A stretch of 34,545 bases of DNA from the NCBI GenBank assembly GCA_024399615.1, contig JAKSNQ010000017.1:1-34545 (forward strand). The letters are read 5' to 3'. The notes beneath the pieces were generated by a model. The model saw only the letters and a program-made list of their open reading frames with translations. It was not told where the DNA came from and searched no databases. The position numbers were made by a program, and so were the translations under genes. Shown in pieces: positions 10,127 through 31,668 of the stretch (position 1 is its first letter; every line of letters starts with the position of its first letter). Origin of the DNA: Paludibacteraceae bacterium. GTDB lineage: Bacteria > Bacteroidota > Bacteroidia > Bacteroidales > Paludibacteraceae.

Positions 10127-10319
10127 GACGTGCTCTAAACACGTATTCGCACTCTTTTTCACTACTTCATCACTTCACAACTACACTTTTTTTAATGAAA
10201 TAGTATGTGAAAGTTTTCTATTCTGTAATTTTCTGAAAATTAGTATTATAATAAGAATGTGAAGTAATATTTTATGGTTATGTGCTTGCGCTGATATGTT
10301 TTATAACATACGCAAATTA

Positions 10320-10351
10320 TTTGCACAAGTGCTTTTTTTTGACTACTTTTG
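10320..10351 (+). promoter_or_regulatory. Promoter of the SusC gene and the PUL
   Basis: TTTG at 10320-10323 and TACTTTTG at 10344-10351 are 20 bp apart, matching the Bacteroidetes consensus. Transcription would start near 10358, giving a leader of about 60 nt before the ATG at 10420. The preceding 10127-10319 stretch is AT-rich and holds no visible gene; it is the likely binding region of the upstream LuxR-type regulator. Confidence 0.75.
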
Positions 10352-10419
10352 CACCTTGTTTTGAGATATGTATGCGCGTTGTGCGTTGCATAATGAAAAT
10401 AAAATTAAAACTCAACAAT

Positions 10420-13635: not shown

Positions 13636-13664
13636 TCATTACTATAACTAGACTGACTATTGTT

Positions 13665-15272: not shown

Positions 15273-15308
15273 TTTCATTTCCACAAGAGAAAAGGACAGG
15301 AATTTGAT

Positions 15309-15341
15309 AAGCCGACTTGAAGCTATCTTGAAGCCGTCTTC
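15309..15341. repeat. 11-bp tandem repeat, three copies, inverted relative to 594-637 (family A)
   Basis: Units AAGCCGACTTG, AAGCTATCTTG and AAGCCGTCTTC. Their reverse complements (CAAGTCGGCTT, CAAGATAGCTT, GAAGACGGCTT) differ by only one or two bases from units of the array at 594-637. Confidence 0.8.
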
Positions 15342-15353
15342 CTAATGCCCTCA

Positions 15354-15409
15354 AATTGTAAAAAAATGCCCTTTTCTTGTGGCAATCTTTTGAATGATAT
15401 TTTACAATT
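15354..15409. promoter_or_regulatory. Inverted repeat between the SusD and binding-protein genes
   Basis: AATTGTAAAA (15354-15363) and TTTTACAATT (15400-15409) are perfect 10-base inverted copies with a 36-base spacer, ending 39 bases before the next start codon. They could form an mRNA stem or a protein-binding site. No promoter match is visible here, so transcription probably reads through from susCD. Confidence 0.4.
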
Positions 15410-15447
15410 CTTAATAACTGTTTTTATTAACTAAAATTCATTTTATT

Positions 15448-16419: not shown

Positions 16420-16427
16420 TTGCATAT

Positions 16428-16523
16428 AGGAAATAAGAAGTAATTTCCTGTAAGAAATAATTCTTCTGTTTTTTAGAAGTTTATACTTCTACTTGCCAGG
16501 AGGGAGTTGGTTCTCCCTCTTGG
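16428..16523 (+). promoter_or_regulatory. Three consecutive stem-loops after the binding-protein gene
   Basis: Stem 1 is AGGAAAT/ATTTCCT (16428-16434 with 16443-16449). Stem 2 is AGAAGT/ACTTCT (16475-16480 with 16485-16490). Stem 3 is an 11-bp stem, CCAGGAGGGAG/CTCCCTCTTGG (16496-16506 with 16513-16523), with one G-U pair and a six-base loop. No long U-tract follows stem 3, so this is more likely a partial terminator or a 3'-end mRNA stabiliser than a full stop. Confidence 0.5.
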
Positions 16524-16550
16524 TTCTAAGGTTCAACGCAACCATACAAT

Positions 16551-17837
16551 ATGAAAACAAAATTAACTATATGTCTTTGGATTCTCTCTGTATTGCTTTT
16601 TGCATGCAAGGAGAAACCTGTTATTGACGATCCTATACTGGATGAAAAAATCAGTTTGACCCCTATATCTTTGGAACTCAAGGTGGGGGAGATGGGAATG
16701 ATTGACGCAGGTAGTGCACGCAATGTGGTGTGGTCTTCTTCTGACGATTCGGTTGCATCGGTGTATGCGGGTGTTGTTGAGGCGCATGCTATCGGTCGTG
16801 CTATCATTACTGCTAAGTCTGGCGAGCAATCTGCGACTTGCGTTGTTTACGTCAAGAGTATCGTTGGTACAACTTTGCGCATTACCCCTTTGCGAGTATC
16901 GCTGGAGGTCGGCGAAACCTATCAGATGAAGTCCTACAATACTTACGCTATGCCGGAAACATGGATTTCGTCCAATACCGATGCTGTTACTGTCTCCGAT
17001 CAGGGATTGGTAACGGCTGTGGCACCTGGCGTTTCTGTGATTACTGTCAAAACGGAAGCAGAAGAGGTCACGGCTATTGTCTCTGTCAACCATCATTGGG
17101 GGGACTATCATCTTGTTTGGTCTGACGAGTTTGATGGTACAGAATTGGATCGCAACACCTGGAATATCGAGCAAGGTGGTGGTGGATGGGGAAACAACGA
17201 GCTTCAGTACTATACCGATCGTTCGGAGAACCTCCGTGTAGAGAATGGTTATTTGGTCATTGAGGCACGTAAGGAAACCTATCAAAATCGCGAATACACA
17301 TCTGCTCGACTTCAGTCGCGTGGTAAAAAAGAGTTCCTCTACGGAAAAGTAGAGGCGCGTATCAAGTTCCCCGGAGGTGGGGGCACATGGCCGGCATTTT
17401 GGATGATGGGTAACAAAGGTGGATGGCCATCTTGTGGAGAAATCGATATCCAGGAGCATGTCGGTAATATGACCAAACGTGCCTCTTTTGCGCTCCATTC
17501 TCCTAAAAGACATGGTGGTTCATGCTGGAGCAAGACTACATGGTTTGACTACGACCTCGCCGAGGATTTCCATATCTATGGAGTAGAGTGGTGCAAGGAG
17601 GAGGAGAATGGAAAGGATGTCATTCGTTTTATGGTAGATAACGTGATCTATGCCGAGTGCTGGGGACAAGCTATCGATGGTAATGATGCATGGCCTTGGA
17701 CCAAACCACACTATATCATCTTCAACTGCGCAATTGGTGGAAACATGGGTGGCCGTGTGGATGATTCTATCTTTGAGCAACAACGACTCATGCTCGTCGA
17801 TTGGGTGCGTGTTTACCAACGTGAGGAGGCCCTGTAA
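16551..17837 (+). CDS. GH16 endo-beta-1,3-glucanase (laminarinase-like) lipoprotein with two Ig-like domains
   Basis: 428 residues. A lipoprotein signal ends in LFAC (Cys19), followed by KEKPVIDDPILDE, whose acidic residues favour surface export. Two bacterial Ig-like domains follow (about 34-102 and 107-178; SVASVYAGVVEAHAIGRAII and VTVSDQGLVTAVAPGVSVIT). The GH16 domain runs from about 184 to the end (YHLVWSDEFDGTELD, NNELQYYTDR, FLYGKVEARIKFPGG, TWPAFWMMG). The active-site strand is GEIDIQEH with the ExDxxE bulge typical of laminarinases: nucleophile Glu297, Asp299, acid/base Glu302. It would cut internal beta-1,3 (or mixed-linkage) bonds. The stem-loops before it probably lower its expression relative to the binding protein. 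Confidence 0.93.
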   Translation: MKTKLTICLWILSVLLFACKEKPVIDDPILDEKISLTPISLELKVGEMGMIDAGSARNVVWSSSDDSVASVYAGVVEAHAIGRAIITAKSGEQSATCVVYVKSIVGTTLRITPLRVSLEVGETYQMKSYNTYAMPETWISSNTDAVTVSDQGLVTAVAPGVSVITVKTEAEEVTAIVSVNHHWGDYHLVWSDEFDGTELDRNTWNIEQGGGGWGNNELQYYTDRSENLRVENGYLVIEARKETYQNREYTSARLQSRGKKEFLYGKVEARIKFPGGGGTWPAFWMMGNKGGWPSCGEIDIQEHVGNMTKRASFALHSPKRHGGSCWSKTTWFDYDLAEDFHIYGVEWCKEEENGKDVIRFMVDNVIYAECWGQAIDGNDAWPWTKPHYIIFNCAIGGNMGGRVDDSIFEQQRLMLVDWVRVYQREEAL

Positions 17838-17918
17838 CAACAGAAGACCTGACGATTCAGACAAAATACGTGTTATCGCAAAATTTGCTATGGTTTAACT
17901 TCGATAAAATTTAAAACA

Positions 17919-19217
17919 ATGAAATATTTCTCTTCTTTGCTATTGGCAGTTATCGCATGTGCTGCTATTGCTTGCAAACCAATCAACGGCCCTACTGATG
18001 ATAATGGGGGTAATGCTCAACCACAAGAAGTGGCAAATCAGATGCATAAGTCACCTAAGCGTGGTGTCGCTTTCAGTTTTACCAACCTGATGGACTTGCC
18101 TTTGCTCACCGATGCCATCTCGTGGAATTACAACTGGGGAAATACCCCTACCAACGATGCTGCAGATTGGTTCGATGCCAATGGAGTGGAGTATTGCCCG
18201 ATGTGCTGGAACGGCAATTACAGCAAGGATAAGATTCGTGCCTATGTGGCTGCGCATCCTTCTACCAAATATCTGTTGGCATTCAATGAACCCAATCTTA
18301 CCGACCAGGCAAACATGGTTCCTTCTAAGGCGGCAGAATTGTGGCCGGATGTAGTTGCTTTGGCAAAAGAACTGAATCTGAAGCTCGTCTCTCCTGCCAT
18401 GAACTATGGCACGTTGAACGGCTACTTTGATCCTATCAAGTGGATGGATGAGTTCCTCGCACAGCCTGGAGTTTCTATTGATGACATCGATGCTATTTCG
18501 CTACATTGCTACATGGGCTCTGCTGCTGGTCTGATTGGTTTTGTGGACAGCTTCCGTAAGTACAATAAACCGATTTGGATGACTGAGTTCTGTGCATGGG
18601 AAAACCTGTCCAGTGTAGAAGGACAGATGACCTACATGTGTCAGGTGCTCAACTATTTTGAACAAGAACCTGTTGTGGAGCGCTATGCTTGGTTTATCCC
18701 TCGCTACAAGAAACCGGGAGACTATCCATATATGCAGCTCCTCACGAATGGTAGCAGTCCGGAGTTGACCGAGTTGGGACAGATGTTCACTCACTTTTCT
18801 ACTTTCGACAAGTCGGTTTATCTGAATGCGTCTAAATATGTGTATGGTGGTGAGTACGTGGCTCTTTCCAGCAATAGTATTCAGGTTCGCCCCTGTACTG
18901 ATACCGAGATGGTGAAGCAGGCAGGAAAGCAAGGTCTGCTGATTTCAAATCTATCGTCGGGACTTAGTGCTACCTATCAGGTGGCTGTTCCTGAAAATGC
19001 TTCGCAACTGGTCATTCGCTATTCGGGTTACTCAGAGTCCATCTTTGAAGTGCTTGTGGATGGCAAGTCTTACAACTTTGCAGATGCTCCTCGTACCGGA
19101 AGCGACAAAACGTTTGCTGAGGCAATAGTACCTGTTAGCAATTTGAAGGGCAATCATACCATCACCATTTCCCTGGTGGATGGTTCTTGTTACCTCTCGG
19201 GTTTCTATATGAAATAA
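17919..19217 (+). CDS. GH128-type beta-1,3-glucanase lipoprotein
   Basis: 432 residues. The lipoprotein signal ends in AIAC (Cys19), followed by KPINGPTDDNGG. The catalytic domain (about 45-280) begins KRGVAFSFTNL and matches the Asl1-like/GH128 fold. Two key acids stand in typical settings: AFNEPNL (Glu124, probable acid/base) and IWMTEFCAW (Glu223, probable nucleophile), with ISLHCYMG and ERYAWFIPR between and after. The last 130 residues look like a CBM6-like beta-sandwich (YGGEYVALSSNS, YSGYSESIFEVLVDGKSYNF, HTITISLVDGSCYLSGFYMK). GH128 enzymes act on beta-1,3-glucans such as laminarin, curdlan and fungal wall glucan. It lies 81 bp after the GH16 gene. The family call rests on motifs, not a search. 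Confidence 0.85.
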   Translation: MKYFSSLLLAVIACAAIACKPINGPTDDNGGNAQPQEVANQMHKSPKRGVAFSFTNLMDLPLLTDAISWNYNWGNTPTNDAADWFDANGVEYCPMCWNGNYSKDKIRAYVAAHPSTKYLLAFNEPNLTDQANMVPSKAAELWPDVVALAKELNLKLVSPAMNYGTLNGYFDPIKWMDEFLAQPGVSIDDIDAISLHCYMGSAAGLIGFVDSFRKYNKPIWMTEFCAWENLSSVEGQMTYMCQVLNYFEQEPVVERYAWFIPRYKKPGDYPYMQLLTNGSSPELTELGQMFTHFSTFDKSVYLNASKYVYGGEYVALSSNSIQVRPCTDTEMVKQAGKQGLLISNLSSGLSATYQVAVPENASQLVIRYSGYSESIFEVLVDGKSYNFADAPRTGSDKTFAEAIVPVSNLKGNHTITISLVDGSCYLSGFYMK

Positions 19218-19248
19218 GCGATATTAATCGACAAATAGCGACATAATC

Positions 19249-19279
19249 CATAATTAGTGAAATCAATCATAATTAGTGA
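19249..19279. repeat. Short direct repeat before the second GH16 gene
   Basis: CATAATTAGTGA occurs at 19249-19260 and again at 19268-19279, 15 bases before the start codon at 19295. Confidence 0.7.
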
Positions 19280-19294
19280 TATAAGTACCGGGAT

Positions 19295-20809
19295 ATGAAA
19301 CGACAACTTTTATTTTCCATATTGTTCGCGTGTTGCGCGAGTGTGTATGCGCAAGCTGATGGAGCGGCTGCCAATTTGTTCAACGCTGCTACCACTACCA
19401 TGTCCAGTTGGTTTACCGGGGTGGACAATTGGAATGGTGAGAACCAATCGCGAGCTACCTGGGATAGAAATACCGGTACTGTAACGGTGCACATCAATCA
19501 GGACAAGAATGCCCAATGGAAGGCACAGATCAAACTCAATACTACGGGTATTGTGTTGGATGCCAGCAGATTGTATCGCTTTACCTGCAACATGAATACC
19601 AACAATGCCATAGGTAATGTAACGGTTAAGGTGTTTGATGATTCGGCGCTCAGTATGCGTTCTGCTCATGTCATTCAGCCTGGTGACAATACCGTCTCCA
19701 ATGGCACTTTCATGGGAGGTAGTATCGGCAATGGCATCATCGTGTTTGACTTTGGTTATGCCAAGTCGGGTGATGTAATCACTATCTCCAATATCATGCT
19801 GACAGAAACCGAACCCGATCCTATTCCCGAGCCCGGGGCTGATGGATATTCGCTCGTTTGGAACGAGGAATTCACAGATGGCAGTTTCGACCTCAATAAC
19901 TGGAATATCGAAACGACTGCCAATCCTGCCAACAACGAACTGCAATACTACTCCGATCGTGGTGTCAGCGTGGAACGTGATCCTGTAGAAGGTAAGCATT
20001 GCCTTGTACTCACGGCTCGTAAAGAGAGTCTTGGCGGGCGCCAATGTACCTCCGGTCGTGTTACGACTGAAAACAAAACCACATTCCTTTACGGCAAGAT
20101 TGAAGCGCGTATCTGGTTTCCCAATACCGGCAATGGTCTTTGGCCGGCCTTTTGGATGATGGGTAATGATATTGGTCAGGTAGGATGGCCTGCTTGTGGC
20201 GAGACCGACATTGTCGAATTGGGCAACAACGGAGGATACAATGGACGACAAGATCGTTTTTTCAATGGAGCCAGCCACTGGGGACCGCGTTGGGATCAGC
20301 ATTATCAGGCTGCCAATAGTATCACCAACGATTTCTCTGTAGAAGATGGGTTCCATATCTGGACTTGTATTTGGGACTCTACTCATGTGGCCATGTATGT
20401 GGACAAGGACACGCGCAACACACAGCCTTACTACGAGATGGCTATTCTTCCGAGCAGCAATTCGCGTGATCCGGGATATTATTTCCATAAGCGCAACTTC
20501 ATTTTGCTCAACTTGGCCATCGGTGGCGATTTTACCGGTATCCATAATGTCAATCAGATCACGGCATTGGCTGATGGTCCTCGCGCTATGTATATCGATT
20601 GGGTGCGCGTATATCAGAAGGAGAATGCGGCCAATCTTATCTCGGGTTCCGGATCGGATGAGGTCGAAGAGATTGATCCGGAGTGGCATGCCAATGCTGT
20701 AGATGATATCACACTTGAGTCAGAGGTAACCAAGTGCATTATTGATGGTCAAATATTCATCAGACGCAATGGTAAACTCTTTACCATACAGGGGCAGGAG
20801 ATAAGATAA
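19295..20809 (+). CDS. Secreted GH16 beta-glucanase with N-terminal CBM4/9-like module and C-terminal tail
   Basis: 504 residues. The signal peptide ends near SVYAQ and has no convincing lipobox. Residues about 25-165 form a CBM4/9-like sandwich (WDRNTGTVTVHINQDKNAQW, GNGIIVFDFGYAKSGDVITI). A Pro/Glu linker leads to the GH16 domain (about 181-445; YSLVWNEEFTDGSFD, NNELQYYSDR, FLYGKIEARIWFP, WPAFWMMGN) with active-site GETDIVEL (Glu303, Asp305, Glu308). The C-terminus carries the tail also seen on three other proteins here (IDGQIFIRRNGKLFTIQGQE). An endo-beta-1,3(4)-glucanase role is expected. The GH64 gene starts 3 bases after its stop, so the two are translationally linked. Confidence 0.92.
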   Translation: MKRQLLFSILFACCASVYAQADGAAANLFNAATTTMSSWFTGVDNWNGENQSRATWDRNTGTVTVHINQDKNAQWKAQIKLNTTGIVLDASRLYRFTCNMNTNNAIGNVTVKVFDDSALSMRSAHVIQPGDNTVSNGTFMGGSIGNGIIVFDFGYAKSGDVITISNIMLTETEPDPIPEPGADGYSLVWNEEFTDGSFDLNNWNIETTANPANNELQYYSDRGVSVERDPVEGKHCLVLTARKESLGGRQCTSGRVTTENKTTFLYGKIEARIWFPNTGNGLWPAFWMMGNDIGQVGWPACGETDIVELGNNGGYNGRQDRFFNGASHWGPRWDQHYQAANSITNDFSVEDGFHIWTCIWDSTHVAMYVDKDTRNTQPYYEMAILPSSNSRDPGYYFHKRNFILLNLAIGGDFTGIHNVNQITALADGPRAMYIDWVRVYQKENAANLISGSGSDEVEEIDPEWHANAVDDITLESEVTKCIIDGQIFIRRNGKLFTIQGQEIR

Positions 20810-20812
20810 GGG

Positions 20813-22558
20813 ATGAGAAAAGCGGTATCCATATTATTTGTTGCATGGCTGTTTTCCATGTCTGCGTGGGCGATTTTCCCCATGCAGTTGGTGAACAATT
20901 CTCCTTTTGACGACTCGCAGATTTACGTGGGAATATTGGGTGAGCGTTTGGGAGTGGCCATGGTGGGCCAACCTTTGGGTAGCAGTCCGCATATCTACTA
21001 CGACTTGAGCCAGAATAGTGCTTCTCGCGTCGTATTGGCTCCGCTCAACGAGTCGGTCAATACCCTTCACAAGCAGCCGGGCGATTGGGGATATGCCAAC
21101 GTGTTTACCACCTTGGATCAGATTCCGAATAAGACGATTTATATTGACAGGTCACAGGCCTGCCGCTTGTTCGTCAGCTTTGGCGAGCCGATGTATCTGC
21201 ATGCCTTCAACGCGGGCTATGCCGGGGCGGACCTGAATAACCCATCCGACCCAAACGCTACCCACCGATGGGAGGTGGCTGAGTTTACCTATGATCAATA
21301 TGACGTCATGTTCATCAACACCACGCGTGTGGATGCGTTCCAGTTCCCGATGGCTGTGGATCTGTATGGCGATGTGGCTGCAGGTGCCAACAATGCGCAC
21401 ATGAGTCGCGGCGAGGTGTGTACCTATTCCGAAGTAATTGGCAAATGGAACGAGGCCTATGCTACCACCAAGTATAACTATTGCAAGATCAATCGTATCA
21501 CGGCGGACACGTTGGGCCCTATCATCATGCAGCCATCTAAGGTGCAGCAGGTCAAGAACACGGGTACGTTTGATGACTATATCGACGAGATTTGGTCTGC
21601 TTTCCAAACCAAGACGCTCCGTGCGCGAATGGGGGAGATTGGCGTCTGGTATGGTCGTGTGGAGAATGGCATCTTCGTGATGCATCACGAGGGTGGGGCC
21701 GAAGTGGCCTATATTTCCAGACCTACGACCAACGATGTGATTGAAGGAGCGGGAACCTTCGCAATCGGCAGCGTGGATGACAAGCGCGTTCAGGCTCAGT
21801 TCTGCGGAGCTATGAATAGAGGTATGATTGACTGTGGTGCGGCTGATAATGTGGAGCAGAACTGGGGCGATACCGAGCGATTCTTCACTACCAATACCTA
21901 TAATGAATACGTGAAGTTCTTTCATCGTGCGGATATTTCGTTGGGTAAATATACCTATGCATTCTGCTATGACGACACGTTTGACCAGTCTTCTACTTGT
22001 GCCACCAGCCATCCGGCAAGTGTGACCCTCACCATAGGTGGGTATTCCGATCAACAGCCATTTGACACCGGCACAGGCGAATCCTTGGGAGGCAATCCAA
22101 CTCCAGGTGGCAACGATAACCCAGGCGGCAACTCTGGCGCTACGGAGGATACCGATGTGACGGCTCAGGGGCTGAGGTACTCGATGACCTTCACGCAGGA
22201 CGGATTGGACGTTACCGTGCAATTCAGCGTACTCAATCCGCAGGATTTTGTGGGACTGGTTCCCGTGGTTTGGGATCGAACCAATGGTTTTACCGAGTAC
22301 ATTGGCGTGGATACCCATACGTTTGAAAATTGTACGCCGGGCGAGGTACTGACCGTGGCATGCAAATGGATGTTTGCCGGAGGCGACACCTTTACGCGCG
22401 ACTACCAATATACCGTGGCTCCTCTTGGAGGAGTACCTACCGAAGTGGAAGAACTGCCGCAAGTTTCTTCCCAAGGAAAAATAGAGATTCGACCGGATGG
22501 CCGTGTGCTGATTATTCACGACGGCAGGTCCTACAATCTGATGGGCATGGAGTGGTAA
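20813..22558 (+). CDS. Secreted GH64-type endo-beta-1,3-glucanase with C-terminal module and tail
   Basis: 581 residues. The signal peptide ends near SAWA, without a lipobox. The catalytic part (about 22-410) shows GH64 landmarks: FPMQLVNNSPFDDSQIYVGI at the start, CRLFVSFGEP, and NPSDPNATHRWEVAEFTYD followed by FINTTRVDAFQFPMAVDLYG. The candidate acid is Glu157 (AEFTYD) and the candidate base Asp174 (RVDAF), by analogy with studied GH64 laminaripentaose-producing enzymes. A Gly/Pro/Asn linker (about 425-445) joins a roughly 90-residue beta module (YSMTFTQDGLDVTVQFSV, CKWMFAGGDTFTRDYQYTV) that looks carbohydrate-binding. The shared tail follows (RPDGRVLIIHDGRSYNLMG). GH64 is better known from Actinobacteria, so its presence in a Bacteroidales PUL is notable. 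Confidence 0.85.
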   Translation: MRKAVSILFVAWLFSMSAWAIFPMQLVNNSPFDDSQIYVGILGERLGVAMVGQPLGSSPHIYYDLSQNSASRVVLAPLNESVNTLHKQPGDWGYANVFTTLDQIPNKTIYIDRSQACRLFVSFGEPMYLHAFNAGYAGADLNNPSDPNATHRWEVAEFTYDQYDVMFINTTRVDAFQFPMAVDLYGDVAAGANNAHMSRGEVCTYSEVIGKWNEAYATTKYNYCKINRITADTLGPIIMQPSKVQQVKNTGTFDDYIDEIWSAFQTKTLRARMGEIGVWYGRVENGIFVMHHEGGAEVAYISRPTTNDVIEGAGTFAIGSVDDKRVQAQFCGAMNRGMIDCGAADNVEQNWGDTERFFTTNTYNEYVKFFHRADISLGKYTYAFCYDDTFDQSSTCATSHPASVTLTIGGYSDQQPFDTGTGESLGGNPTPGGNDNPGGNSGATEDTDVTAQGLRYSMTFTQDGLDVTVQFSVLNPQDFVGLVPVVWDRTNGFTEYIGVDTHTFENCTPGEVLTVACKWMFAGGDTFTRDYQYTVAPLGGVPTEVEELPQVSSQGKIEIRPDGRVLIIHDGRSYNLMGMEW

Positions 22559-22617
22559 GCCCAACGGGTTATTCAGTCGCTAAGCCCTAATCGGCTCATG
22601 CGCCTGAGCGAAACAAA

Positions 22618-23619
22618 ATGATTATGAAAAAGACAACATATTTGATGGTTGGCCTGCTGTTTGGCCTGATTATGAGTTCCTGCCAAAAGCAGGAAGAGTA
22701 TCAATTGGTATGGGCAGACGAGTTCGATGGAACAGAAGTCGATACTACCTATTGGAATTTTGAGGACAACGCCCGTGGTGGTGGAAATGCCGAGTTGCAG
22801 TATTTCACTCCCCGCAACGCTTCGATTGAGAAGCATCCTGTTTCGGGCGAATCATGCCTAGTGCTGAATGCACAACGTGAGGATTACTACTATACGGCTG
22901 CGGATGGCGAGCAGGGGTATCGTCCTGCTACGTCGGTGCGAATGAACACGCAGGACAAGATGGCCTTTACCTATGGTAAGATTGAGGCGCGTATTGCTTT
23001 CCCTTTCACCAAAGATGGTCTGTGGCCTGCCTTCTGGATGCTCGGAAATAATTTGGCTACCGACTTGGGAGACGATGATTCCATCGACGATATGGCGGAG
23101 GAACTGGCCAAGCAGGGCAGGGTACTCTGGCCTAAGTGTGGCGAGATAGATATCTGCGAGATGGGGCACGTCAGCGGTATCGAGATGGGCTTGCAGGACC
23201 GCCGTTTCAATGGAGCGGCACATTGGGGAGAAAGTTACAACAACGGACAGTACCCCAATACGGCCAATTTCGTGAATATTGATTATCCGGTACAGGGTGA
23301 TTTCCACACCTGGACGGTAATCTGGGAACCTGACACATTGGCGATGTATCTCGATCTGGATGCGAATCCAGAGGCGGAACCATATTTCGCACTCTCGTTG
23401 CGCAACAAGGAGCTGAACGAGCCGGGCCATTATTTCAACCACGATTTCTACCTGCTCTTCAATCTCTCTGTTGGAGGCTTCTTCCCAAATATGCCTAATC
23501 CCGACAAGTACTCCAAGGTGGTGCCGGCTGAATTGCTCGAGCCTGTTACGGGTCTGCCTGCCGATGGTACGCCTGTGAAGATGTACGTGGATTACGTCCG
23601 CTTGTATCAAAAGAAATAA
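22618..23619 (+). CDS. GH16 beta-glucanase lipoprotein (third in the locus)
   Basis: 333 residues; the ATG at 22624 is an equally good start. The lipoprotein signal ends in SSC (Cys22), followed by QKQEEYQ. Almost all of the rest is one GH16 domain (YQLVWADEFDGTEVD, NAELQYFTPRNASIEK, FTYGKIEARIAFPF, LWPAFWMLGN). The active-site strand is GEIDICEM: Glu176, Asp178, Glu181, counted from 22618. Between the WPAFWM strand and the active site lies an acidic insertion (DLGDDDSIDDMAEELAKQG) absent from the other two GH16 proteins here, which may change the substrate cleft. It has no added binding module, so it may act on imported oligosaccharides in the periplasm or as a second surface enzyme. Confidence 0.92.
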   Translation: MIMKKTTYLMVGLLFGLIMSSCQKQEEYQLVWADEFDGTEVDTTYWNFEDNARGGGNAELQYFTPRNASIEKHPVSGESCLVLNAQREDYYYTAADGEQGYRPATSVRMNTQDKMAFTYGKIEARIAFPFTKDGLWPAFWMLGNNLATDLGDDDSIDDMAEELAKQGRVLWPKCGEIDICEMGHVSGIEMGLQDRRFNGAAHWGESYNNGQYPNTANFVNIDYPVQGDFHTWTVIWEPDTLAMYLDLDANPEAEPYFALSLRNKELNEPGHYFNHDFYLLFNLSVGGFFPNMPNPDKYSKVVPAELLEPVTGLPADGTPVKMYVDYVRLYQKK

Positions 23620-23666
23620 TGCAAGGCTTTTTGGAGTTGAAAAAGAAATAATGCATGGCCCTTTGG
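23609..23666. repeat. 26-bp imperfect direct repeat between the GH16 and symporter genes
   Basis: The segments 23609-23634 and 23641-23666 both begin AAAAGAAATAATGCA and continue GGCTTTTTGG or GGCCCTTTGG. The first copy includes the GH16 stop codon, so the gap has apparently grown by local duplication. Confidence 0.75.
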
Positions 23667-23688
23667 GCAAAAAAAATAATAGAATATC

Positions 23689-25131
23689 ATGAAACTGTCA
23701 GTAAAAGAAAAACTCGGTTATTCGCTTGGCGACACCGCATCCCACTTTGTCTGGGACATGGTCAATTTTTGGCTCATTTTCTACTACACCGATGTGTTGG
23801 GCGTAAGTATCACATGGGCAACAACGATTGCTATTATTGGTACCGTAATGGACGCGGTGATGGACCCTATCGTGGGTATCTTTGCCGATCGAACCAACAC
23901 CAAGTTTGGTAAGTTCCGTCCGTTCCTTTTGTGGGGTGCAATCCCATTTGCGTTGTGTGCCTTCCTGGCTTTCTTCGGACCTGATTTGATGGGTAATGCG
24001 CAGATTGCATATGTCTTGACTACGTTCATTCTCTTGCGTATCATCTATGCCGTAGTGAACATCCCATATTCGTCGCTGGGTGCTGTGATGACCAACGACT
24101 CCATTGAGCGTGCCGGCTTGAACTCCTATCGCTTCGTGGCGGCCAATCTCGGTCAGTTGATCGTATCCGGTTTGGCTTTGTATGGCGTCTATTACCTGGG
24201 TGCCATGTGCGTGGAGGGAATCGACTATTCGTTGATGAGCGATGACTCGGCCCGCAAACTGTTTGCTGAGGCTTCTGATGCCAATGGTGAACTGATACGT
24301 GGCGCATACAAGTATGGTTTCCGTTATTTGGTGGCTATATTTGGCGTAATCAGTATCGTGCTGTTCTACATCACGTTCCGCACTACCAAAGAGCGTGTAG
24401 CGCCAGCCAAGAAGCAGGACAGCAACCTCTTCCGCGATTTCAAGTTCCTCTTCAAAAATCGCCCTTGGGTAGTGTTGACGTTGGTGGGTATTCTTTCCTT
24501 CATCATGTTTGCCATCCAGAACATCTCGGCTACTTATTATTTCAAGTATTATTGCGATGCCGAGTCGAAGGCACAACTGTTCAACCTGCTGGGCACCATC
24601 GCACTCATCATCGCTATTCCTACTACCAAACCGCTCGTTAAGCGCTTTGGTGGAAAGAATCTGTACATCGTGTGCTCGCTCTTGTCCGGTACCTTCTTCG
24701 CATTGCTCTATGTGGCAGGCGACAACATGGTGCTGATCAATATCTTCAACTGCCTGGGTAAGATCTCGTATGCGCCGGCTATCTCGTTGCTGTGGACTAT
24801 GTTGGCCGATGCTGCCGATTATGGTGATTGGAAATTCCAGCGTCGTACCACCGGTCTTTGCCTCTCTGCTGCTGTGTTTGCACAGAAGATCGGCTGGTCG
24901 ATCGGTGCTGCTATCTTGGGACAGATCATGGCCGGCGTGGGCTTTGACCCAGAAGCGATGACCACTTCTCAGATTCAGGCCGATGCCTCTATCATGAGCA
25001 CGATTCACGTTTTGTTCGGACTGATTCCGGGCATCCTCTATGCTTCTTGCGCTATCTTCCTCTTCTTCTATAATCTGGACAACAAGACCCTTCAGGAAAT
25101 GAAGGCAGATCTTGAGAAGCGCGAAGACTAA
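23689..25131 (+). CDS. GPH-family (MelB-like) sugar:cation symporter, inner membrane
   Basis: 480 residues with about 12 hydrophobic segments. The N-terminus (KLGYSLGDTASHFVWDMVNF) and the first cytoplasmic loop (DPIVGIFADRTNTKFGKFRP) are the signatures of the glycoside-pentoside-hexuronide:cation symporters within the major facilitator superfamily. A later segment, AADYGDWKFQRRTTGL, is also typical. It should move short beta-glucosides (laminaribiose or longer) from periplasm to cytosol with sodium or proton. The next gene encodes a cytosolic-type phosphorylase without a signal peptide, so the pair makes sense as uptake followed by phosphorolysis. Substrate is inferred from context. Confidence 0.92.
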   Translation: MKLSVKEKLGYSLGDTASHFVWDMVNFWLIFYYTDVLGVSITWATTIAIIGTVMDAVMDPIVGIFADRTNTKFGKFRPFLLWGAIPFALCAFLAFFGPDLMGNAQIAYVLTTFILLRIIYAVVNIPYSSLGAVMTNDSIERAGLNSYRFVAANLGQLIVSGLALYGVYYLGAMCVEGIDYSLMSDDSARKLFAEASDANGELIRGAYKYGFRYLVAIFGVISIVLFYITFRTTKERVAPAKKQDSNLFRDFKFLFKNRPWVVLTLVGILSFIMFAIQNISATYYFKYYCDAESKAQLFNLLGTIALIIAIPTTKPLVKRFGGKNLYIVCSLLSGTFFALLYVAGDNMVLINIFNCLGKISYAPAISLLWTMLADAADYGDWKFQRRTTGLCLSAAVFAQKIGWSIGAAILGQIMAGVGFDPEAMTTSQIQADASIMSTIHVLFGLIPGILYASCAIFLFFYNLDNKTLQEMKADLEKRED

Positions 25132-25147
25132 AAATTATTTTTAATTT

Positions 25148-25233
25148 GCAGTCCGGTTGTAAATAAACTTTTGCAGTTCGGCTGTAAATAAATTAGCAAA
25201 TAAAACTTAGCAGCTTTGCTGCAGATAAACTTA
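25148..25233. repeat. Three imperfect ~23-bp repeats before the phosphorylase gene
   Basis: Copies at about 25148-25170, 25173-25195 and 25210-25233 share the pattern GCAGTYCGGYTGTAAATAAA; the third is more diverged (GCAGCTTTGCTGCAGATAAA). The last ends about 10 bases before the start codon at 25243. Confidence 0.65.
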
Positions 25234-25242
25234 GTAAGAACT

Positions 25243-28200
25243 ATGTTTTTGAATCCAAAACAGGCGTCCGGTCGTTTCGTCACTCGCCAAGGCGAGAAAT
25301 TCTATCTTATCGAGAACTACGATGCGATGCAACCGTTTTTCATCTCTTTGGCCAGTGATACTGACTTGTGGATGTATATCTCCTCAACTGGAGGTTTAAC
25401 TTGCGGTCGTAAATCGCCCGATCAGGCGCTTTTCCCATACTATACCGATGATAAGATAACGGAATGTTTCCGTCACACCGGTCCCGCTACGGTCCTCAAG
25501 GTTACGCGCGGCAGTCTCAAGCAGGCAGAAGCCGATGAGGCTGTGCTCTGGGAACCATTTTCCGATCGCTATGAGGGGGTGTATGATATTCAGCGTAATA
25601 TCCTCAAATCGGTTACGGGAAATAAACTCATTTTTGAGGAAACGAACCGTACGTTGGGCATGACCTTCTCGTATCTGTGGACCAGTTGTGATGCCTATGG
25701 ATGGGTGCGTAAAGCTACTATCCATAATGATGTGGCTGAGGCCGTGGAGGTGGAGTTTGTGGATGGTCTGCAGAATGTGTTGCCAGCGGGTACCGATCGT
25801 GTTACACAGAACACCTATTCCACTCTTGTGGATGGCTACAAAAAGACCGAGATAGTAGATTCGTTGGCGCTTTTCCAGATGGAGGCAATCATGGTCGATC
25901 GTGCCGAACCATCCGAGTCGTTGCGTTGCAACACCATCCAATGTGTGGGACTCGACAATGCCGAAGATTGGGCCAGCAATCGTCAGTTGCAGGCCTTCTG
26001 TCATCATCAGCCCGTTCATGACGAGCTGGTGTCAAAGGGTGTGCGTGGTGCAATCTTTATCCATAGTCGTGTAGCGCTCATGGCTGATGCCGAGAAATCA
26101 TGGTATTTCCTGGCGGACGTGGAGAAGGACGCTTCGGCTGTGCTCGAGATGCTCCATAATGCTCCGACTACTACGCAAATCAACGAAGCCGTACGTCGCT
26201 CGACCGAGACGCTCTACAGCATCGTGGCCCAGAACGATGGTGTGCAGATCACGGCTGACGAGCATGCCAATGCGCGTCATTTTGCCAACGTGCTGTTCAA
26301 TACCATGCGTGGTGGATTCTATGTGGACAACTATATGATTTCCGGACCGGCATTTGCTCAGCACGTGCGGTTGTTCAATCATGCGGTGGCCGATCGTCAT
26401 GCTGCTTTCCTTGACTCTCTGCCACAACAGATCGAGCGCTTCAACCTGCTGGAGGAATGCCTCCTGCAGAACGATCCGCAGCTGAATAGACTCTTTGAGG
26501 AGTATCTGCCGCTCACGTTCTCGCGTCGTCATGGCGACCCTTCGCGCCCATGGAACTTGTTCTCCATCCGTGTGAATGATGCCGAGGGCAAGCGACTCAT
26601 CTCTTATCAGGGTAACTGGCGCGATATCTTCCAGAACTGGGAGGCGCTCTCTCATTCCTATCCGCTCTATATCCACAGCATCATCGCCAAGTTCCTCAAC
26701 GCTACTACGGTGGATGGCTACAATCCATATAAGATAACCTCTGAAGGTATCGATTGGGAGGTCATCAATCCGGATGACCCATGGTCAAACATTGGTTATT
26801 GGGGCGATCATCAGATTATCTATCTGCTCAAGCTCCTTGAGTTTGAGTATGCGCATGGCAAGGATCTCCTGATGGAGCGTCTCAACGATTCTGAGTATGC
26901 CTTTGCCAACGTGCCTTATCGCCTGAAATCGTATGCCGAAATTGTGAAGGATCCGAAAAACTCTATCACCTTTGACGAGCAGACGCATCGACACATACTC
27001 AATCTCATCCCATCGTATGGACAGGATGCGCGACTCCTGCTGGACGAGAAGGGTGAGGTTGTGATGGCCTCTTTTGGCGAGAAACTCCTGACTACTTTCC
27101 TCAGTAAGGTATCCAATACCATCCCATATGCAGGCGTGTGGATGAACACTTTGCGTCCCGAATGGAACGACGCCAACAACGCGCTTGTCGGCAATGGCGC
27201 AAGTATGGTGACACTCTGCTACATGCGTCGTTTTGCTGCCTTCTGTATGCGCGCACTCTCTGACGTGAGTCAGCTCAACGACGAGTGCACGATTGCTGTC
27301 GAGTTGCATCAACTGCTGCTTGCTTACCATCGTGCTTCAACTGCATTGGGGGATCAGCGTACACCACAGGCTATTCGTCAGTTCGTCGATACGATGGGGT
27401 TGGCCGGCGAACAGTATCGTCAGGCCGCATATGCCGGTTTGTCGGGCAAGAAGATAACGCTTGACTGTTCCGAAATCTATGATTTCTATGCCGATTTCCT
27501 TGCGTTGGCAGACAAGTCTATTCGTGCCAACATCCGCAAGGATGGCCTTTACAACGCATATAATACCATTCAGTTCACGACCGATGGCATCACCATCCAG
27601 GAACTGTATCCAATGCTTGAGGGACAAGTGGCTGTACTCTCCAGCTTTGCGCTCAGCCCTGAAGAAGTGACCGAACTGCTGCACACGTTGCGCCATTCTG
27701 ACCTGTATCGCGAGGATCAGCGCTCGTACATGCTCTATCCTAATCGCTTGCGTCCATCGTTCTTTGAGAAGAACAATGTGCCGGAGTCTGTGATGCAATG
27801 GCCGGAGTATGCCGATTTGCTACAAGCCGATATCCTGCGCGAGGATTGCGAGGGAGGAGTGCATTTCAATCCGGGCTTTAACAATGCTGACTTCATGCGC
27901 AAGCATTTGTCTCGCTATCCGGAACTGTCGAAGTTGTCCGATAAACTGTCAGCAATCTATGAGCAGGTGTTCAACCACCATGCCTTCACCGGCCGCTCCG
28001 GCACCTTCTATAAATACGAAGGACTGGGCAGTATCTACTGGCATATGGTCAGCAAGTTGCTTTTGGCCGTGGGCGAGAACATCCAACGTGCTTTTGACGC
28101 AGCTGTTGCAGGCGAGACATTGGGCCAACTCATTCGCCAATATCGCGAGATACAAGAGGGCATCGGCGCGCATAAGCAGCCTGCTGAGTATGGTAGTTTC

Positions 28201-28557
28201 CCATTCGATCCGTATTCACACACGCCATCTATGGCAGGTGTGCAGCAACCCGGCATGACCGGACAGGTGAAGGAGGATATCCTCAGCCGTTGGATGGAAT
28301 TGGGTTTGCGCATTCAAAATGGCACGTTGAGCATCTCTCCTCTCGTGAAGAAAATGCTCAGCCATAATGATTTTATCCAGGGAAGGCTGCGTTTCAGTTA
28401 CTGTGGTACACAGTTTGAATACGTGCTTTCTGACCATGATGCCATCACTTGTTGCGGCAAGACAACTCAGGGACTCAGTCTCGATCTGGCTACCAGCCGA
28501 CAGATCTTCTTCCGTAGTGGCGAAGTCGAGCATGTACAGGTGGAGTTGGCTATGTGA
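25243..28557 (+). CDS. Large beta-1,3-glucan/oligosaccharide phosphorylase, GH149-like (clan GH-Q)
   Basis: 1104 residues from the ATG at 25243 (MFLNPKQASGRFVTRQGEKF); an in-frame TTG nine codons earlier falls in the repeat and is unlikely. No signal peptide is present, so it is cytosolic. The N-terminal beta-sandwich (about 1-300; YISSTGGLTCGRKSPDQALF, FSDRYEGVYDIQRN) and the helical barrel resemble GH94-type phosphorylases. DPWSNIGYWGDHQIIYLLKL places the probable catalytic acid at Asp522. The length of about 1100 residues and the glucan context favour GH149 (beta-1,3-oligoglucan phosphorylase) over GH94 cellobiose- or laminaribiose-type enzymes of about 800-900 residues; GH161 is the other alternative. 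It would convert imported laminarioligosaccharide plus phosphate to glucose-1-phosphate, saving ATP. Confidence 0.8.
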   Translation: MFLNPKQASGRFVTRQGEKFYLIENYDAMQPFFISLASDTDLWMYISSTGGLTCGRKSPDQALFPYYTDDKITECFRHTGPATVLKVTRGSLKQAEADEAVLWEPFSDRYEGVYDIQRNILKSVTGNKLIFEETNRTLGMTFSYLWTSCDAYGWVRKATIHNDVAEAVEVEFVDGLQNVLPAGTDRVTQNTYSTLVDGYKKTEIVDSLALFQMEAIMVDRAEPSESLRCNTIQCVGLDNAEDWASNRQLQAFCHHQPVHDELVSKGVRGAIFIHSRVALMADAEKSWYFLADVEKDASAVLEMLHNAPTTTQINEAVRRSTETLYSIVAQNDGVQITADEHANARHFANVLFNTMRGGFYVDNYMISGPAFAQHVRLFNHAVADRHAAFLDSLPQQIERFNLLEECLLQNDPQLNRLFEEYLPLTFSRRHGDPSRPWNLFSIRVNDAEGKRLISYQGNWRDIFQNWEALSHSYPLYIHSIIAKFLNATTVDGYNPYKITSEGIDWEVINPDDPWSNIGYWGDHQIIYLLKLLEFEYAHGKDLLMERLNDSEYAFANVPYRLKSYAEIVKDPKNSITFDEQTHRHILNLIPSYGQDARLLLDEKGEVVMASFGEKLLTTFLSKVSNTIPYAGVWMNTLRPEWNDANNALVGNGASMVTLCYMRRFAAFCMRALSDVSQLNDECTIAVELHQLLLAYHRASTALGDQRTPQAIRQFVDTMGLAGEQYRQAAYAGLSGKKITLDCSEIYDFYADFLALADKSIRANIRKDGLYNAYNTIQFTTDGITIQELYPMLEGQVAVLSSFALSPEEVTELLHTLRHSDLYREDQRSYMLYPNRLRPSFFEKNNVPESVMQWPEYADLLQADILREDCEGGVHFNPGFNNADFMRKHLSRYPELSKLSDKLSAIYEQVFNHHAFTGRSGTFYKYEGLGSIYWHMVSKLLLAVGENIQRAFDAAVAGETLGQLIRQYREIQEGIGAHKQPAEYGSFPFDPYSHTPSMAGVQQPGMTGQVKEDILSRWMELGLRIQNGTLSISPLVKKMLSHNDFIQGRLRFSYCGTQFEYVLSDHDAITCCGKTTQGLSLDLATSRQIFFRSGEVEHVQVELAM

Positions 28558-28562
28558 TGCAT

Positions 28563-28631
28563 AATTGTCCAATAGTAAATTGTCCAATAGTAAATTGTAA
28601 AATTGTCAAATAGTAAAATTGTCAAATAAAT
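28563..28631. repeat. 15-bp AT-rich tandem repeat before the duplicated-domain protein gene
   Basis: AATTGTCCAATAGTA occurs twice (28563-28577, 28578-28592). A truncated AATTGTAA (28593-28600), AATTGTCAAATAGTA (28601-28615) and AATTGTCAAATAAAT (28617-28631) follow. The array ends one base before the start codon, so it makes up nearly all of the gap. Related GTCAAATAGTCAAATT-like sequence recurs at 29545-29560 and 31850-31865. Confidence 0.8.
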
Positions 28632-28632
28632 T

Positions 28633-29553
28633 ATGCAGAAAATTTTTACTCTTTTGTTTTCGTTGTGCCTGACAATCAGCACTTTCGCTATCAATTGGGG
28701 CGAGTTACCCTGGTTGGGCAACGGTTCAGGATTGCCGGAATACAACGATGCCGTGAAGGTATATATCCCGGCTGAATACACCAACGTTGGTGTGGTCAAT
28801 TTGCAGGCTCCCGGCTTTGCTACTGAACCGGGTATTTATGTCACTTTCCCTGCGGGAATCCTTGATTGCTCGTTGGGCGAGGGTCATTGTGATATTCAGG
28901 GTGCCGGTATCATCTTGCACCTGTCTGCTTTCACAGCGAAAGAAACGGCTGTGACGGTAAACTATGCCGGTGGTTCGGCTACTATCTATGTCTATTGGAA
29001 AGATGGTACTGGCGAAGCATCGGGCAATGAAGACCCTGTCACTCCTCCGGGTGGCGATCCTACTGACCCTATCACCCCTCCGGGTGGCGATCCTGTTGAC
29101 CCAACGCCCGGAACTATCGACTGGAGCAGCATCCCATTTTTGGGGGATGGCGCACAAGGTGGCGCGCTTTCCAATATGTATAAGGTGGCTACTGCCGATG
29201 GTCAGACCGTCGTGAATATTCAGAACAGCGCCGAGGGCGTGCCTGCTATTTATACGTATTTCCCTGCCGCTCCCCTTTCTGACTACACCTTGGGTGATGA
29301 TGCATGGGAAGTAGCTGGTGCAGGATGCTGGATCTATCTGAATGCGTTTTCTGAACGTGAGACAGTCGTGTCTGTTACTGCCGGTTCGGTTGCTTATCAG
29401 TTCGTTGTCTATTTCGCAGGAGGTACTACTACCGGCCTCGAGTCGGTGGCTGCACAGACTGCAACCAAGCGCTTCGGCGGCATCGATGGTCGTCAGTTGC
29501 TCATCGTCCGCGATGGCGTGACCTACACGGTATCGGGTCAGATAGTCAAATAA
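28633..29553 (+). CDS. Secreted protein with two copies of an unrecognised ~100-residue domain and C-terminal tail
   Basis: 306 residues. The signal peptide ends near STFA with no lipobox. Domain 1 (about 20-125) opens INWGELPWLGNG and domain 2 (about 162-262) opens IDWSSIPFLGDG. Both continue with a K-V segment, then VVN(L/I)Q, then GIYVTFPAG or AIYTYFPAA, a central GAG (GAGIILHLSAFTAKET versus GAGCWIYLNAFSERET), and end in YVYWKDGTG or FVVYFAGGT. They are therefore true internal repeats. A Pro/Gly/Asp linker with two copies of TPPGGDP separates them. The end is the shared tail (GRQLLIVRDGVTYTVSGQIV). No catalytic residues are apparent. By context a beta-glucan-binding role is plausible but unproven. 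Confidence 0.75.
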   Translation: MQKIFTLLFSLCLTISTFAINWGELPWLGNGSGLPEYNDAVKVYIPAEYTNVGVVNLQAPGFATEPGIYVTFPAGILDCSLGEGHCDIQGAGIILHLSAFTAKETAVTVNYAGGSATIYVYWKDGTGEASGNEDPVTPPGGDPTDPITPPGGDPVDPTPGTIDWSSIPFLGDGAQGGALSNMYKVATADGQTVVNIQNSAEGVPAIYTYFPAAPLSDYTLGDDAWEVAGAGCWIYLNAFSERETVVSVTAGSVAYQFVVYFAGGTTTGLESVAAQTATKRFGGIDGRQLLIVRDGVTYTVSGQIVK

Positions 29554-29592
29554 TCAAATTGATAGTTATTAATTAAATAAAATATATTACCT

Positions 29593-31668
29593 ATGAAGAA
29601 AATTTTCACATTTGTGTGCTGCGTTTGCATGGCAGTTGCTTCGTTTGCACAAGGTATCGTTTATGATACCAATTTCGCCTTGGCATCCAATGGCGCTACT
29701 GCCACGGCTTCATCCGGCAATGCGGGTGCGGCTATCGACGGCAACAATGGTTCTCGTTGGGAGTCAGATCACCAGGAGACTGCGTGGTGGCAACTGGACA
29801 TGGGTCAGGTTCGTATTTTCAACACCATCCAGATTCGCTGGGAGGGTGCTTACTCCAAGACATTCGAACTGTTGGGCTCGAATGATGCAGCCAACTGGAC
29901 GGTTATCCAAAGTGTCAGCCGTACGTTGGACAATGCGAACAACTACGAAGAGGAGTTCGTTTTTGCTACAGACCAGAGCTATCGCTACATCTTGCTGAAT
30001 GCGACCGAACGTGGTCTGCCTTATGGTCACTCGTTTTTCGAGTTCCGCGTCCTCTATCCAGGCGTATCTGTGTTGACTACTCTCGAGTTGACCGCAGCTT
30101 CACCATTGGCAAAGATGAGCGAGGGTGTAGACCTGAACGTCGTTGCAAAGGATCAAAACAACGCTATTATGGCGGATTACGGCACCTTGACCTACAACAT
30201 CGACCCTGCAGCTGCAGGTAACATGGTAGGTAACAAGTACATGCCTGCTACCAAGGGTACGGCTGTTATTACCGCTCAAGTTGGTGAAGTCGTTTCCAAC
30301 GTCGTGTCTGTGTTTGCATATGCTGGCGAGAACGTGGCGCTCAACAAACCAGTTGAGAACATCGGTACACCAGAGACTCCGGGCCTGATTGTCAACAACG
30401 GCAACGAGGGTGACATCTGGCAGGGTATTACCAGCCCAAGCAACGCAACCATGGATCAGGAGTGCGGTTTTATCATCGACCTTGAGGCTTACTATTCGCT
30501 GGAGCTCGTTACCATCAAGTTTGAGGGTGCTTGCTCACAGAACTACACCGTGGACTTCTCAGAGGACGGTTCAGCATGGACTACAGGTTATGAGCATATT
30601 GGTAATCCTGGTATCAACGGCCGCACCGACATGATCTATCCCGGTGGTGACAAGGAACTTCAGAACTACGACAAGGTGCGCTATGTTCGCTTCCTCTCAA
30701 CCAAGCAGGCTACCGAATGGGGTTGCAAGATCTACGAGTTCAAGGTGTTTGGCGAGGATTGGGTACCTTCCGACGACGCTGAGGCTCCTGTGATGGGTAC
30801 GGCTTCACTCGTTTCTGTTAACGACAACCATGCCGTTATCGCTGTTACTGCTACCGACAACGGCGAAGTACGCGATTTCCACGTAGTGGATGCTGCTAAT
30901 GGCATCAACGTGTTCTGCGCTGCTGTGGCTGGCAATATCACCGTTAGAAACCTCCAGCCTGGTACTACCTACCACTTCACTATCACCGCTCGTGACTTGG
31001 CTTTGAACGAGTCAGCCAACAGCCAGACCGTAAACGTTACCACCGCTGCTCACCTCACTCAGCCTGAGACGCTTCCTGAAGCACAATCACATCCTGCAGA
31101 GAAGGTGAAAGCTATCTATTCTGACGTCTATACCGTTAATCCTGTTTGGAACGACTACAATGCGCCTTGGGGTCAGAGCACTACGATGGAGGCTATCGAA
31201 GTTAGTGGCGACAATATGCTCAAATATGCTAACCTCAACTGGTTGGGTTGGACCTGCGCAACTGCAGTCAACGCCAGCGAGATGACTCATCTGCATATCG
31301 ATATCTGGGCTGAGGACAACGGCCATCTGGGCATTGTGCCTATCTTCGGTGGAACAGGTCTCACTACCGACGACAACAAGCGTAAGATCGTGGACCTCGA
31401 AGGTCAGGCTTGGAACAGCTTCGACCTCAATCTGGCTACCGATTTCGCCGGTTTGAACCTCACCTCTATTTTCCAGTTCAAGTACGACAATGCTGATGGT
31501 CGCACCTTCGTTATCGATAATGTGTACTTCTGGACCGATGGCATCGTTACAGCATTGGAAGAAGTGACAACCGAGCAAAACGTTACCAAAGTGATCCGCA
31601 ATGGTCAGCTTCTCATCATCAAGGATGGTGTAGCATACAACGTTGCCGGTCAGATAATTGGTAAATAA
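29593..31668 (+). CDS. Secreted multi-domain binding protein: two F5/8-type C domains, Ig-like, FN3, C-terminal sandwich and tail
   Basis: 691 residues. The signal peptide ends near ASFAQ with no lipobox. The order is F5/8 type C (discoidin, CBM32-like; about 28-152, GNNGSRWESD, WWQLDMGQ), an Ig-like domain (about 158-236), and a second F5/8 type C domain (about 240-388, NVALNKPVENIG). An FN3 domain follows (about 395-482, VRNLQPGTTYHFTITARDLA), then a beta-rich domain (about 500-648; VKAIYSDVYTVNPVWNDYN, HLHIDIWAEDNGHLGIVPIF) similar to C-terminal modules of other Bacteroidetes glucan-degradation proteins. It ends in the shared tail (IRNGQLLIIKDGVAYNVAGQ). No glycosidase domain is visible, so it likely binds or recruits polysaccharide outside the cell. 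Confidence 0.85.
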   Translation: MKKIFTFVCCVCMAVASFAQGIVYDTNFALASNGATATASSGNAGAAIDGNNGSRWESDHQETAWWQLDMGQVRIFNTIQIRWEGAYSKTFELLGSNDAANWTVIQSVSRTLDNANNYEEEFVFATDQSYRYILLNATERGLPYGHSFFEFRVLYPGVSVLTTLELTAASPLAKMSEGVDLNVVAKDQNNAIMADYGTLTYNIDPAAAGNMVGNKYMPATKGTAVITAQVGEVVSNVVSVFAYAGENVALNKPVENIGTPETPGLIVNNGNEGDIWQGITSPSNATMDQECGFIIDLEAYYSLELVTIKFEGACSQNYTVDFSEDGSAWTTGYEHIGNPGINGRTDMIYPGGDKELQNYDKVRYVRFLSTKQATEWGCKIYEFKVFGEDWVPSDDAEAPVMGTASLVSVNDNHAVIAVTATDNGEVRDFHVVDAANGINVFCAAVAGNITVRNLQPGTTYHFTITARDLALNESANSQTVNVTTAAHLTQPETLPEAQSHPAEKVKAIYSDVYTVNPVWNDYNAPWGQSTTMEAIEVSGDNMLKYANLNWLGWTCATAVNASEMTHLHIDIWAEDNGHLGIVPIFGGTGLTTDDNKRKIVDLEGQAWNSFDLNLATDFAGLNLTSIFQFKYDNADGRTFVIDNVYFWTDGIVTALEEVTTEQNVTKVIRNGQLLIIKDGVAYNVAGQIIGK

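Follow-up and report, generated by a model that had tools for sequence, protein, structure and literature searches.

The window, that is the whole stretch of DNA analysed here (34,545 nucleotides), is an entire contig (C9) from the genome of a Paludibacteraceae bacterium, the assembly of which amounts to 1.78 Mb on 84 contigs and is 76% complete. Four of its genes encode proteins that finish in the same short C-terminal tail, a candidate sorting signal of the type IX secretion system (T9SS), and this tail is the subject of the present analysis. The four proteins and their tails are located as follows:

19295..20809, + strand: GH16 protein with tail, 504 aa (open frame; PF00722 in Pfam)
20696..20806, + strand: tail of the GH16 protein, 37 aa from the putative site N/AVDD (frame, alignment, profile)
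20813..22558, + strand: GH64 protein with tail, 581 aa (frame; PF16483 in Pfam; signal-peptide start)
22442..22555, + strand: tail of the GH64 protein, 38 aa from the putative site PT/EVEE (frame, alignment, profile)
28633..29553, + strand: 306-aa secreted protein with tail (frame; body without Pfam match; signal-peptide start)
29434..29550, + strand: tail of the 306-aa protein, 39 aa from the putative site TT/GLES (frame, alignment, profile)
29593..31668, + strand: discoidin (F5/8 type C) protein with tail, 691 aa (frame; PF00754 in Pfam; signal-peptide start)
31552..31665, + strand: tail of the discoidin protein, 38 aa from the putative site VT/ALEE (frame, alignment, profile)

The first-pass annotation had described four proteins of unrelated body that finish alike. 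The frames do end at 20809, 22558, 29553 and 31668 with the residues that it reported, and the bodies correspond to PF00722, PF16483, no Pfam match and PF00754, respectively. Its tail of about 30 residues was too short, the conserved unit being 37, 38, 39 and 38 residues long (in window order) when counted from the putative cleavage motif. In the alignment of the four window tails the invariant columns were I, G and G, and NCBIfam and Pfam scans of the four proteins gave no match over the tails. The GH16 protein starts with MKRQLLFSILFACCASVYAQ, which was judged a signal peptide I by eye and a lipoprotein start by a crude rule and is therefore ambiguous; a signal-peptidase-I-like site is also visible there. 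The body of the 306-aa protein gave no Pfam match at E≤5; by eye the two halves of this protein (28633-29553) are alike and are separated by a Pro/Gly/Asp-rich linker, which contains two copies of a 33-base repeat.

Occurrence and anatomy of the tail

A profile built from the four window tails was searched against the genome that the window belongs to (the own genome) and found 26 places at E≤10, consisting of the 4 inputs and 22 more, of which 19 reached E≤0.01. Such a search had been proposed in the first pass, and the tail was indeed found at the additional places as well as in sampled relatives. A stop codon lay 0-7 residues from the match in 26/26 own-genome places; if the 22 additional places were distributed uniformly, the chance of all of them falling ≤7 residues from the stop would be ~2e-41, the limit of 7 having been chosen post hoc. 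The profile rebuilt from the 26 own tails gave 28 own-genome places at E≤0.001. A regular expression, composed after the tails were known, matched 17 times at a terminus and never internally when 105,585 residues of sampled frames were scanned. On a single contig of 31.5 kb (C15 of the own genome, G000) five tailed proteins were located at 9904-27448, with four tails inside 8 kb, and two of the five are phosphodiester glycosidase (NAGPA) proteins.

The distribution among protein classes was examined in 16 stretches of 20 kb from the own genome together with the window, which gave 238 crudely called genes, with signal peptides judged by eye and by hydrophobicity instead of SignalP. Among these genes 14 tails were present, 13 on signal-peptide I proteins and 1 on a lipoprotein by the crude rule (the ambiguous window GH16 protein), while none was found on the 102 cytosolic-class and 53 membrane-class proteins (p ~3e-8); the confinement to secreted proteins claimed by the first-pass annotation is thus upheld. 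Another 42 signal-peptide-class proteins of this sample had no tail, including by eye TonB receptors and proteins of OmpA, OmpH and periplasmic type. In the window the tail-less proteins comprise six lipoproteins (SusD, four others and a GH3 lipoprotein) and the TonB receptor. A Sec-type signal peptide was seen in 23/23 own tailed proteins with a complete start (that of the window GH16 protein being ambiguous and that of L026 short and uncharged), 3 of the 26 being cut by contig ends and outside this count. The same was true for 28/28 complete foreign tailed proteins; of the 76 foreign frames, the fetched sequence covered 30 in full, and a 33-aa and a 78-aa frame among them were excluded from the count. 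At 74 of the 76 foreign loci the match was ≤10 residues (0-10) from the stop. The bodies of tailed proteins are of extracellular kinds, such as alpha-amylase, pectate lyase, C10 and S8 peptidases, CotH, GHL10 and leucine-rich repeat (LRR) proteins.

The anatomy of the tail was read from an alignment of 96 tails (A4; 26 own and 70 foreign), and a motif count was made on 99 tails (26 own and 73 foreign). Left out of the 76 foreign loci in the motif count were L074 (33-aa frame), L081 (match not at a stop) and L139 (frame cut by a contig end), and the alignment additionally omits L070, L073 and L158, which run >5 residues past the match. The order of elements is the cleavage motif, a variable linker of 8-15 residues, a conserved Lys, a putative strand NGQ-hydrophobic-hydrophobic-I, a putative turn [KR][ND]G, a second putative strand with [YF][NT]xxG at its end, and 3-8 last residues. 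For n = 96, the cleavage columns contain T in 64, followed by A or G in 71, I/V/L in 91 and E or D in 60 tails. After the linker come K (92), two residues, E (51), N or D (85), G (89), Q (62), two hydrophobic residues and I (96), and then one residue, K/R (85), N/D (81), G (84), two residues, Y/F (96), N (72), two residues and G (96), so that I, the aromatic residue and G are present in 96/96 rows. From the putative site to the C-terminus the 96 tails measure 35-45 residues (36-39 in 72/96 and ≥43 in 4/96), which agrees with the first-pass statement that they are shorter than the classical C-terminal domain (CTD) of 70-100 residues. The strict pattern [TSPVA][AGS][IVL][EDN] occurred in 50/99 tails versus 10.1 in shuffles (maximum 21, 500 rounds), and 39 of these 50 sites are situated 36-39 residues from the end; a looser cleavage-like pattern, counted without shuffle control, occurred in 89/99. 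The putative T/[AG][IV][ED]-like site upstream in the tail resembles the published PorU cleavage site. No PDB chain matched the tail profile at E≤1.

The own genome encodes SprA (contig C48, 2659 bits), PorU (1067 bits) and PorV (378 bits), the latter two adjacent on contig C41, and a second PorV-family protein (contig C12, 138 bits). It also has seven type A CTDs above the TIGR04183 cut-off, one of which is that of PorU, and, by pattern, at least one short CTD of the Prevotella intermedia kind (in L254); with the tails, several signal kinds therefore coexist. The tailed proteins thus combine an N-terminal Sec signal peptide with a C-terminal signal candidate in a genome that encodes SprA, PorU and PorV, as is general for T9SS cargo.

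SprA was searched in the own genome and in samples of the phylum, the order and a second family (that of G551), and PorU and PorV in the own genome; per genome, at most the best 26 candidates were scored in the phylum sample and at most the best 39 in the own-family sample. In the phylum sample the tail was detected at E≤0.001 in 1/296 genomes, namely the own genome, and SprA in 228/296. The order sample gave the tail in 8/295 and SprA in 277/295 genomes, and 7 of the 8 tailed genomes were SprA-positive. In the own family 64/200 sampled genomes carry the tail. The genomes listed for this family, 116 without a match being excluded from the list, include 35 of the own genus, where the number of matches per genome ranges from 9 to at least 39 (at least 39 in 24/35), and 29 genomes of 13 other genera with 1-10 matches each; the order of the genomes suggests, but does not prove, that no member of the own genus is among the 116. 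Summed over the 35 listed genus members there are at least 1,238 matches at E≤0.001, counted without inspecting their positions singly. In the second family the tail was present in 41/201 genomes, and 41/41 lie within its 154 SprA-positive genomes, with 0/47 among the SprA-negative ones (Fisher p 6e-6, uncorrected for kinship). The tail thus tracks the T9SS translocon in the one family tested on enough genomes. Since most sampled T9SS genomes are without it, it is a lineage-restricted signal and not a general T9SS one.

The termini of one body were compared using the tailed protein P0001 (locus L092) as query, which is pectate-lyase-like by eye, had no Pfam match at E≤0.001, and for which 80 relatives were fetched. 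By the own-genome tail profile 3/80 relatives end in the tail, namely L211, L235 and weakly L167 (59% identity, E 0.004), two of which are Paludibacteraceae and one Bacteroidales by record. About 8 relatives, including L168 (62% identity), end by eye in a short CTD with motifs B, D and E, and many others have no C-terminal extension or are lipoprotein-like by eye. When ten C-termini were scanned, the long CTDs of L170, L187 and L199 were above the TIGR04183 cut-off, and four short CTDs and three tails matched nothing. One body that apparently ends in the tail, a short CTD or a type A CTD according to the species is the pattern expected of equivalent sorting signals. By eye, L168, L203, L219 and L240, all from other Bacteroidales, have short B-D-E CTDs of the P. 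intermedia kind, and none of the four has an NCBIfam match at E≤1, so NCBIfam annotation also misses the short CTDs of other Bacteroidales.

The tail as a candidate sorting signal

Because of its position, its conservation, the signal peptides, the presence of SprA, PorU and PorV, the co-occurrence with SprA, the cleavage-like motif and the terminus swap, we consider it very probable that the tail is a minimal T9SS sorting signal. The first-pass suggestion of a sorting or anchoring signal is likewise the best reading of these sequence data, in line with the occurrence on signal-peptide proteins and the tracking of SprA in one family. In the proposed mechanism, the N-terminal signal peptide would direct Sec export across the inner membrane, and the C-terminal tail, probably folded as a hairpin, would be recognised at the SprA/Sov translocon of the outer membrane, where PorV is the most likely shuttle to bind it. 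Cleavage by PorU would follow at the T/[AG][IV][ED]-like site ~37 residues from the end, and the protein would be linked by PorU to surface polysaccharide or released.

Several observations weigh against the tail being such a signal. The published motif order B, D, E was not seen in the tails, and the 12 NCBIfam families to which the 96 tails had matches at E≤1 include no T9SS model. Profile comparison with CTDs aligned only 11 residues with motif B (12% probability, E 0.002) and, for the other CTD kind, 10 residues (3% probability, E 0.014). Lys or Arg, the counterpart to the near-C-terminal Lys of type A CTDs, is found in the last two residues of only 54/96 tails. Because the aligned sequences were themselves picked by a profile, selection accounts for some of the conservation in these figures. 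One tailed protein, the window GH16, is a lipoprotein by the crude rule. The first-pass annotation had named as arguments against its suggestion an occurrence on cytosolic proteins, or absence from T9SS genomes with a scatter unrelated to signal peptides; among the 238 sampled genes no tail was found on a cytosolic-class protein and 13/14 were on signal-peptide proteins, with the qualification that the tail is present in 0/227 other SprA-positive genomes of the phylum sample and absent from most sampled T9SS genomes. Its proposed check, whether tailed genomes encode PorU, PorV and SprA, gave all three in the own genome, and SprA in all tailed genomes of the second family and in all but one of the order sample; the exception is the SprA-negative genome G583, where the tail match is confined to a frame of 33 aa. 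The foreign match L081 (1501-1587, genome G538; E 1e-10) does not end at a stop: its frame is still open where the fetched sequence ends, which may reflect a fusion, a frameshift or chance. The literature searched contained no experiment on secretion, cleavage or localisation of the tail.

Three other explanations were weighed. The tail could be a T9SS signal off the PorV/PorU route, which travels with a PorP/SprF-like shuttle or with the second PorV-family protein and stays uncleaved; the genome does encode that second protein (C12, 138 bits), and type B CTDs are reported to rely on PorP/SprF proteins and probably to remain uncleaved (PMC10202324), but the cleavage-like site belongs to the conserved unit and 0/17 Pfam-scanned window proteins were PorP/SprF-like, so that this route appears rather improbable. 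That the tail is no secretion signal, and is instead a small element by which extracellular proteins dimerise or bind, for instance to a surface glycan or partner proteins, would suit its presence on carbohydrate-active enzymes and adhesin-like proteins. However, the tail is also found on C10 and S8 peptidases, CotH and an LRR protein, it is located at the extreme end and is missing from the six window lipoproteins, it tracks SprA in the family tested, and CTDs replace it in relatives of P0001, all of which makes a binding element very unlikely. The YNxxGQ end does resemble CTD motif B, as it would if the four tails were chance resemblances or remnants of truncated classical CTDs, but with I, the aromatic residue and G kept in 96/96 tails, 17 terminal versus 0 internal matches of the regular expression and a total of at least 1,238 matches (E≤0.001) across the listed 35 genus members, we give this almost no credence.

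If the tail is a T9SS sorting signal, the T9SS cargo of the own genus would be undercounted by present models, because the own genome has 28 tail places (E≤0.001) versus 7 above the TIGR04183 cut-off, one of them PorU. Short T9SS signals would then extend from P. intermedia to a whole genus and scattered relatives, the features that PorV and SprA recognise would be narrowed, and an export tag of ~40 residues would be on offer.

The tailed window proteins lie within a glucan-type polysaccharide utilisation locus (PUL; 10372-34187), which comprises a TonB receptor, SusD, three GH16, a glycosyl hydrolase catalytic-core protein, GH64, a major facilitator superfamily transporter and GH3, and the substrate of which is probably beta-1,3-glucan. 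Tail-less lipoprotein enzymes are encoded in it alongside tailed enzymes, and one PUL may be served by two surface routes. A 1104-aa protein of this PUL (25243-28557) had no Pfam match at E≤1e-5; by eye it bears a likeness to sugar phosphorylases of the GH94 kind.

Comparison with known type IX secretion signals

Type A CTDs (TIGR04183, PF18962) share with the tail the C-terminal position on Sec-exported cargo, and both occur in the own genome and on relatives of P0001. The tail is too short for this kind, which forms a seven-stranded sandwich; the type A or long CTDs of P. intermedia measure 69-82 residues (PMC11969387), and those of Flavobacterium are reported to have ~100 residues. TIGR04183 matched 0/96 tails at E≤1, and so did TIGR04131 (type B) and NF033708 (type C); for TIGR04183 and TIGR04131 this is the outcome that the first-pass annotation expected. 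In a Pfam scan of the 96 tails no CTD model, PF18962 included, was among the matches listed (25 of 29 weak families). A Lys near the C-terminus is almost invariant in type A CTDs, and cryo-electron microscopy shows CTDs bound to PorV loops and the SprA wall (PMC10994853). A colinear truncation of type A CTDs after motif B was tried and rejected: against the tail profile, 11 truncated CTDs reached -4.3 to 4.2 bits and the 10 listed whole ones -4.3 to 2.7 bits, which is nearly equal, 2 of 13 having been dropped for lack of the pattern. Exosortase, dockerin and membrane-anchor readings were also put aside, since by eye the ends show neither a hydrophobic helix nor a cluster of Arg, and the matches listed contain no model of these kinds.

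For so small a signal there is a precedent in Porphyromonas gingivalis, where a two-strand C-terminal piece, formed by the final 22 residues of the HBP35 CTD, is reported as sufficient for GFP export (PMC4804311). That piece consists of motifs D and E of a longer CTD, whereas the tail ends in a motif-B-like element.

Also close to the tail are the short CTDs of P. intermedia, which have 43-55 residues with a cleavage site followed by motif B, D (GxY) and E (K/R), a preferred PorU site PT/GI, a predicted three-stranded sheet and predicted PorV binding (Ye et al. 2025, PMC11969387); that paper describes short T9SS signals as reported for P. intermedia alone. Like these, the tail is short and terminal, it is carried by signal-peptide proteins, it has a putative PT/GI-like cleavage site and a Tyr..Gly element as in motif B, and longer CTDs occur in the same genome. 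It differs in length, being mostly 36-39 residues and below the range of 43-55, and in order, with the NGQ-hhI strand and the [KR][ND]G turn first and YNxxG last; after the aromatic-N-x-x-G no D strand and E motif are possible because just 3-8 residues remain. In the literature, subscription journals, figures and supplements aside, no recognisable account of this motif order was found, and an earlier description may exist.

Profile comparison aligned motif B of both CTD kinds with the YNxxG of the tail, and a kinship with known CTDs is thus a lead and not a result. It is conceivable, though we would sooner doubt it, that the tail is a circularly permuted minimal CTD, in which the D-E hairpin comes first and motif B is the free C-terminus, with the shuttle reading a surface whatever the chain connectivity, and that in one Bacteroidales genus it has become the main signal on cargo. 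When the D-E piece of 13 real short CTDs was placed before motif B, the mean tail-profile score rose from 4.6 to 8.2 bits (Wilcoxon p 0.006; 3.6 bits with shuffled D-E), but with a second spacing it was only 4.9 bits, and single shuffles were often as high; this scoring favours the permutation in a suggestive way only. Taken by its sequence, the tail appears to be a variant of T9SS signals that is distinct from both the type A CTDs and the short CTDs of P. intermedia.

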